From: Sphingobium arseniciresistens | Lineage (GTDB): Bacteria; Pseudomonadota; Alphaproteobacteria; Sphingomonadales; Sphingomonadaceae | Length of the DNA stretch: 64,000 bases | NCBI GenBank assembly: GCA_029167225.1 | Contig: JARFNK010000015.1 | Coordinates: 1-64,000, forward strand | Direction of reading: 5' to 3' | Shown: piece after piece, positions 25,386 through 25,676 of the stretch | How the letters are laid out: each line of letters starts with the position of its first letter | How positions within the stretch are numbered: position 1 is the stretch's first letter | Notes under the pieces: generated by a model | Seen by the model: only the letters and a program-made list of their open reading frames with translations | Told to the model about the DNA's origin: nothing | The model's database searches: none | Made by a program: the position numbers and the translations under genes

Positions 25386-25676
25386 GATTCTCGTGCGTGA
25401 TTCTCGCATCTGATTCTGATCCGTGATTCTGGGACCATGATTCTGGGTTTCGCATCTGCGGAATGCGTCGCGGGGGTCTTCCCGCGGCCGTTAACGAAAA
25501 AAATCCCGGCCCCAGGAAATGATGAGTCTTCCGGGCAACACCACGACATGTTGAGTCTTTGTCTGAACCGACGACTCAACATGTCGTGGGGACTCGCTTC
25601 GTTCTCATGGCGCCGAGTCGCTCTCTCAGCGACGCCGTCCAAGTGCCTGATCTTGACGGCAGACTCCTTAGGACTC
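25386..25676. promoter_or_regulatory. Cluster of 12 GANTC (CcrM) sites upstream of ccrM
   Basis: GANTC occurs at 25386, 25399, 25412, 25425, 25439, 25524, 25553, 25573, 25591, 25615, 25662 and 25672 (first bases). The first five are all GATTC(T) at 13, 13, 13 and 14-base spacing and form a degenerate tandem repeat. About one site would be expected in 291 bases at 65% GC with independent bases. GANTC is the target of CcrM, encoded immediately downstream, and in Caulobacter methylation of sites in the ccrM promoter/leader modulates ccrM transcription. Methylation-dependent control here is an inference. No coding gene lies in 25375-25712. Confidence 0.85.
25541..25589 (+). promoter_or_regulatory. 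Perfect 17-bp hairpin in the ccrM leader with GANTC in both arms
   Basis: CCACGACATGTTGAGTC (25541-25557) and GACTCAACATGTCGTGG (25573-25589) are perfect inverted repeats with a 15-base loop. Each arm ends in a GANTC site next to the loop. No T run follows, so a simple terminator is unlikely. It could be an attenuator or binding site in the ccrM leader, or a leftover palindromic insert. Confidence 0.75.

Follow-up and report, generated by a model that had tools for sequence, protein, structure and literature searches.

CcrM is a core cell-cycle enzyme of the Alphaproteobacteria, and NrdR is a repressor that senses dATP and ATP, whose 16-bp palindromic box we take to have the consensus ACACWATATATWGTGT. 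According to the cited accounts, Caulobacter CcrM is activated by CtrA and removed by Lon (PMC3667746), and two GANTC sites are reported in the promoter region of the Caulobacter ccrM gene (PMC10073500). In the promoters that depend on GcrA and CcrM (ctrA P1, mipZ and podJ), GANTC lies between the −35 and −10 elements, and two juxtaposed GANTC are described for mipZ (PMC3667746, PMC4287350); the Caulobacter starts with GANTC in this position are described as one timed class with cell-cycle activation (PMC4287350). The extended motif of GcrA is given as YGAKTCK (PMC7987155). NrdR is reported to bind tandem boxes with 14–17 (or 24–27) bp between them (PMC12051234), and its boxes at RNR genes are described as often overlapping the promoter (PMC9110341). 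In the NrdR complex of S. coelicolor, as reported, D15 and R17 read conserved G:C pairs, and inverting these pairs weakens the binding approximately 50-fold (PMC9110341). In P. aeruginosa, one NrdR box precedes topA, a chromosome-related non-RNR gene, which NrdR is reported to activate (PMC4409342).

The region upstream of ccrM in Sphingobium arseniciresistens was compared with these systems in a stretch of 64,000 nucleotides, which is referred to as the window. Like the NrdR operators of RNR genes, the region contains two 16-bp imperfect palindromes with 17 bp between them, in which C4 and G13 are kept, and the genome encodes NrdR. It differs from them in that the gene is that of a methyltransferase, ccrM, and not an RNR gene, which is the usual, although not the defining, location of an NrdR box; moreover, both boxes contain GANTC and lie well upstream of the presumed −35 element. 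The Caulobacter ccrM promoter, as known from the cited paper alone, also has GANTC in its promoter region, whereas the present region has more sites, fixed positions and an NrdR-type element. The placing of GANTC is shared with the GcrA/CcrM-dependent promoters; however, the methylase itself would be controlled here, the binding of GcrA is putative, and there is no clear −10 element. A tandem pair of boxes with methylation sites is found here, in contrast to the one box described for topA.

The features of the region are listed in Table 1. We consider it probable, from the comparisons of sequence given below, that the region is a composite control region of ccrM, in which a methylation-dependent promoter, a tandem NrdR-type operator, GANTC sites that overlap this operator and recently acquired distal units would be combined.

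Table 1. Features in and around the region upstream of ccrM in the window; negative numbers are distances from the ATG at 25704, and rows are the 138 ccrM loci described in the text.
Feature	Position	Strand	Remark
Small ORF between rnhB and the distal array	25090..25374	+	
Distal array of five GATTC(T) units	25386..25443	+	GATTC at 25386, 25399, 25412, 25425 and 25439; spacing 13, 13, 13 and 14
GAGTC at −180	25524..25528	+	132/138 rows
NrdR-like box 1, CCACGACATGTTGAGT	25541..25556	+	inner end is GAGTC 25553-25557
NrdR-like box 2, ACTCAACATGTCGTGG	25574..25589	+	inner end is GACTC 25573-25577
GACTC at −113	25591..25595	+	followed by GCTTCGTTCTC
GAGTC at −89	25615..25619	+	position not generally conserved
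TTGAC, likely −35 of the proximal ccrM promoter (inferred)	25653..25657	+	138/138 rows, 136 as CTTGAC
GACTC at −42	25662..25666	+	9 bp after the first T of TTGAC (spacer)
GACTC at −32	25672..25676	+	19 bp on from the first T of TTGAC, immediately ahead of where the −10 is expected
ccrM, GANTC adenine-N6 methyltransferase by similarity	25704..26852	+	

The most likely start of ccrM is the ATG at 25704, and further in-frame ATGs occur at 25713 and 25722. A match to ccrM at E ≤ 1.1e-151 was obtained in 60 of 61 genomes of the genus, the present one included. One genome (G052, reported as 99% complete) shows no ccrM ortholog, its best match being E 1.2e-6 over 65 residues, and the match at locus L091 (G044) contains one TAA stop.

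The loci upstream of ccrM in the Sphingomonad set form 138 rows, including the window, which correspond to 135 distinct sequences; the relatives are not independent samples. Some of the G loci duplicate named loci (e.g., L125 and L001), and for a few rows, which are MAGs, the name goes no further than Alphaproteobacteria or Proteobacteria. A paralog (L149), a duplicate of the window (L081) and a truncated locus (L138) were left out of the row counts. The large alignment holds 70 of the 138 rows, and the profile and covariation test hold 35. The class set consists of 48 of the 115 other genomes of the class with a match, namely the best-scoring loci and 20 that were fetched; it leans to genomes with a good CcrM because best-scoring loci were chosen. 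L193, which belongs to the window's own family, was dropped from it.

The preliminary description had claimed 12 GANTC sites at 25386–25676, directly before ccrM, as five GATTC units every 13–14 bp and seven GAGTC or GACTC sites. The number, the letters and the spacing are all borne out (Table 1), the last site stops 28 bp short of the ATG, and the rest of the window holds 48 sites. The description had also expected about one site by chance in this length. This agrees with the dinucleotide expectation of approximately 1.2 per 291 bp, but the rate observed in the window, 0.94 per kb, gives approximately 0.3. The window contains 60 GANTC, compared with 265 per 64 kb expected from dinucleotide shuffles. 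The site is thus approximately four times rarer than the dinucleotide expectation across positions 1–64000, as if it were selected against outside control regions. Because of this depletion, the local excess is larger than had been thought.

The densest other 300-bp stretch of the window has 3 GANTC, and the maxima per 300 bp in five 20-kb stretches of the same genome are 4, 5, 3, 2 and 4. When 60 sites were placed at random 20,000 times, more than 6 per 300 bp never occurred, and none of 7 other palindromes of the same composition exceeds 6 per 300 bp in the window. The density is tied to ccrM and is conserved, as the number of GANTC per 300 bp is higher upstream of ccrM than in the remainder of the fetched locus in 133 of 137 loci, the window included. 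A class sample of 49 loci, 48 of them outside the Sphingomonad set, has a mean of 4.0 GANTC upstream of ccrM, compared with 0.47 expected.

The cluster had been read as a single amplified sensor array of 12 sites. This reading was rejected, since the distal five units are private to this genome among those searched: at E ≤ 0.001, 93 other genomes of the genus (Sphingobium) gave no match to them at the DNA level. Absence of the array from close relatives, which the preliminary description had itself set against its proposal, was thereby found for these five units. The cluster consists of two parts, namely private distal units and proximal sites that are mostly order-wide.

The small ORF beside the distal array, which presumably encodes an antibiotic-biosynthesis-monooxygenase-like protein, has 2 matches in 139 loci, both in this genome. 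Taken by themselves, the distal units may have no role and may have arisen by neutral tandem duplication next to a gene that was newly gained; this is a serious possibility, which we would place only slightly on the doubtful side. It is in keeping with the restriction of the units to this genome among those searched and of the neighboring ORF to this genome among the 139 loci, and also with the 13-bp spacing of the units, which is not a helical repeat. On the other hand, all five units fit the extended GcrA motif YGAKTCK, as given in the cited paper, even though the letters of their spacers differ; and since GANTC is depleted elsewhere in the window, selection may well act on the five units that were kept. 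In L126, L106 and L108, a palindrome like CATAACCATATGGTTATG was seen by eye roughly at −290 to −240 from ccrM, adjoining the apparent start of a divergent gene, where the window has the distal array instead.

The proximal sites are for the most part conserved in position and in the letter N among the 138 rows. In addition to the site at −180 (Table 1), GAGTC at −151 is kept in 122 rows, GACTC at −131 in 119, and GANTC at −32 in 118. The distance of the −42 site differs by one or two bases among the rows, and only 71 of them align it as GANTC for this reason. Around −113, GANTC occurs within a 15-column stretch in 47 rows, mostly outside Sphingobium. The distance from the −180 site to the GAGTC of box 1 at −151 is 29 in 106, 30 in 10 and 28 in 1 of the 117 rows that have both. 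An upstream promoter in which the −180 GAGTC would serve as a −35-like element is a guess, and so is GAGTCT-N17-CATGTT, which overlaps box 1, as a candidate for this promoter. Directly after box 2, CTTCGTTCTC at 25597–25606 is partly conserved across the 138 rows.

As shown in Table 1, TTGAC is invariant among the rows. The offsets of GANTC after it are 9 and 19 in 66 rows and 8 and 19 in 30, which amounts to 96 of 138. In 35 of the 48 class genomes, TTGAC is followed by GANTC at +8 to +10 or +18 to +20, and of the 48 TTGAC in the window (both strands), only the one upstream of ccrM has GANTC at +8 to +10/+18 to +20. A sigma-70 scan upstream of ccrM gave no site, and no clear −10 hexamer was recognized by eye after TTGAC. 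GcrA is encoded in the genome (G000:C73, 86 bits). The feedback that the preliminary description had proposed for the sites before ccrM is partly supported by the two sites at 9 and 19 bp after the invariant TTGAC and by the encoded GcrA, but this does not extend to the whole cluster.

The NrdR-type operator with its pair of GANTC had been overlooked, and it would add a candidate input from the nucleotide pool. Each of the two boxes matches 11 of the 16 letters of the consensus ACACWATATATWGTGT that was taken here, and each arm of the inverted repeat in which they lie is itself close to a 16-bp palindrome. The boxes are 33 bp apart from start to start, and the pair before nrdA in the same genome has the identical spacing. 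In 106 rows, the separation of the two box GANTC could be counted; it is 20 bp in 95 of them and 19 bp in 11, which corresponds to 17 or 16 bp between the boxes. C4 is kept in 129 of the 138 rows in box 1 and in 137 in box 2, and G13 in 137 and 132, respectively, where positions 4 and 13 were converted here from the numbering in PMC9110341. Box 1 departs from the consensus by T14 to A (A in 125/138 rows) and box 2 by A3 to T (T in 126/138 rows), and each of these departures creates GANTC. Therefore, the outer base of GANTC is the pair contacted by NrdR, as far as the cited complex describes the contact, and the methylatable adenine is its neighbor. Of 60 boxes before nrdA in the family, only 5 contain GANTC, and no pair has it in both boxes. 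The NrdR of the genome (G000:C55) keeps the DSR and RRRR motifs. A second NrdR-type zinc-ribbon protein, L162 (G000:C26), is encoded in the genome, without an ATP-cone by eye.

The tandem boxes were scanned against this consensus with a maximum score of 32. Start-to-start spacings of 30–34 were allowed in the row, nrdA, class and RNR scans, and 31–33 in the core-letter, distance and E. coli scans. A pair score of at least 20 was reached upstream of ccrM in 127 of 138 rows, compared with 10 of 690 shuffles, and the other 11 rows fell below it. The best pairs of the relatives have a mean of 21.5, which is within the range of 30 nrdA loci of the family (16–25); 27 of these 30 loci are above 18, which is the maximum in 60 coding stretches. 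When C4 and G13 were required, 51 out of 80 named loci were found to have a pair of at least 21 before ccrM, whereas the 806 kb of flanks of the 80 loci hold one pair of that score, which lacks an intact core. The pair before ccrM, with a score of 21, is the only one of at least 21 in the window, and there is none in the five 20-kb stretches of the genome. As a positive control, the scan was applied to three 8-kb stretches of E. coli K-12, where its highest-ranking pairs precede nrdH, nrdD and nrdA, with scores of 24, 26 and 24, and the same scan finds the pair before nrdA in the present genome.

Shuffled consensuses, 100 in number, reached a mean of 6 Sphingomonad rows. Two near-equivalents, WCACAATATATTGTGW with 122 rows and ACTCAAAWWTTTGAGT with 102, which are close to the true consensus or its arms, came near the 127 of the true one. 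For this reason, the boxes are named on the basis of their core letters, their spacing and what is seen in the wider class. A sequence-only profile of the element was built from 35 of the 138 rows, hand-picked for intact arms, so that its invariant GANTC columns, as in the covariation test, are set partly by choice. Of 1295 candidates in the genome, 150 were scored with this profile, and at E ≤ 10 it found only the element itself, on both strands. It misses even nrdA, which indicates that the ccrM version differs from the RNR version, and the general NrdR consensus was used instead.

Outside the Sphingomonad set, a pair of at least 20 was found in 20 of the 48 class genomes, compared with 23 of 1920 shuffles, and a single box of at least 13 in 5 of 48, compared with 1 of 1920. 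The true consensus reached 20 class genomes, compared with at most 14 for any of 200 shuffled ones. Near-perfect boxes precede ccrM in a few other alphaproteobacterial families: ACACAAGATATTGTGT in L228 and L241, ACACAAGATGTTGTGT in L220 and ACACAATATCTTGTGT in L217. In the genome of L241, CCACAAGATATTGTGG lies upstream of an RNR-domain match. The remaining 28 of the 48 class genomes are below a pair score of 20, and the trait is therefore widespread and not universal. Co-occurrence of NrdR and the box was considered as a further line of evidence and set aside as uninformative, as NrdR is present in 47 of the 48 class genomes. The genome of L220, which has a near-perfect box, has no NrdR match in an assembly that is 84% complete. 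Among 27 RNR-domain loci from 12 class genomes, only 11 contain a pair of at least 21, in a scan that took in each locus at full length and not just its promoter.

The resemblance to NrdR boxes could instead be a by-product of inverted GANTC in AT-rich surroundings that are bound by GcrA or another factor, so that CcrM/GcrA feedback alone would act here. The encoded GcrA and the two GANTC in the TTGAC promoter are in line with this; YGAKTCK, in the form given by its source, fits 9 of the 12 cluster sites compared with 10 of the 48 GANTC elsewhere in the window, and a palindrome with ACTCAA/TTGAGT arms fits 102 of the 138 Sphingomonad rows. However, the outer half-sites CCAC and GTGG, which are not part of GANTC, are largely conserved too, boxes without GANTC precede ccrM in several other families, and the spacing agrees both with that of NrdR and with the nrdA pair of the same genome. 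We regard feedback through CcrM and GcrA alone as unlikely.

The arms 25541–25557 and 25573–25589 form a 17-bp inverted repeat, which might act as an attenuator or terminator in the leader of the mRNA. Pairing between the arms is perfect in the window, where they give a stable fold (z −4.4). However, the 35 sequences that were hand-picked because their arms are intact show 76.5% pairing, compared with 77.2% when columns are shuffled. Covariation is not in excess, and no Rfam match at the element reached the gathering score. An RNA hairpin is highly improbable on these two results and was rejected.

The distance from the GACTC of box 2 to TTGAC is 78–80 in 91 rows, 88–91 in 10, 68–69 in 2 and 61 in 1. 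This count is free of alignment and covers the 104 unambiguous rows of 138; 30 of the others have no exact repeat, 1 has no TTGAC, and 3 are ambiguous. The steps of approximately one helical turn suggest that, in the Sphingomonadales alone, a protein on the boxes must face the promoter; shared ancestry makes the number of independent events smaller than these counts suggest. Distances between box and TTGAC scatter in the class set, and the claim of helical phase is restricted to the Sphingomonadales for this reason. A CtrA-type reading of the interval from box 2 to TTGAC was considered and set aside: the letters TTAACC ... GCTAAG, noticed by eye only, occur there in many rows of Sphingobium and are not clear in the window.

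In the composite control region that we favor, the use of the TTGAC core promoter, with GANTC 8–9 and 19 bp downstream, would depend on methylation by CcrM, most likely via GcrA. The candidate tandem operator lies approximately 80 bp upstream of this core promoter, and NrdR loaded with dATP and ATP would bind to its two boxes and adjust ccrM, most simply by repression, to the supply of DNA precursors. Such control would link the output of the methylase to replication. A single change in the inner half of either box yields GAGTC or GACTC, so that the CcrM target shares the G:C pair that NrdR is reported to read, and full or hemi-methylation could alter the binding of NrdR and thereby close a feedback loop. 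The five distal units would be a recent addition in the lineage, either as extra GcrA-type sites or as a neutral repeat. The conservation, the box match, the spacing, the shared base pairs and the presence of nrdR and gcrA were computed directly.

The boxes are located approximately 64–112 bp upstream of TTGAC, and simple blocking of that promoter is therefore not obvious. Repression is the default reading, and the distance from box to promoter, together with the activation reported for topA, leaves the sign of the control either way. The promoter itself is inferred, as are its occupation by GcrA, that of the boxes by NrdR, the sign of the control and the sensitivity to methylation. More tentatively, and with clear reservations, a methylation-gated NrdR operator can be proposed: ccrM would belong to the NrdR regulon across a good part of the Alphaproteobacteria, the boxes of the Sphingomonadales would have evolved the mark beside the pair read by NrdR, ccrM would integrate dATP and hemimethylation at the fork at the same base pairs, and the NrdR–DNA complex would stand in a fixed helical phase with the promoter.

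If true, an NrdR-type operator before ccrM would connect the epigenetic cell-cycle clock directly to metabolism through the pool of DNA precursors, and the overlap between the recognition sites of CcrM and NrdR would make an effect of m6A on the binding of NrdR cleanly testable. No link between NrdR and ccrM was found in the literature searched by title and start of the abstract; RegPrecise and most subscription papers were outside this scope, so that an earlier prediction is possible. Elsewhere in the window, a glycine riboswitch aptamer (RF00504, 55.6 bits) lies at 58527–58636 on the + strand.
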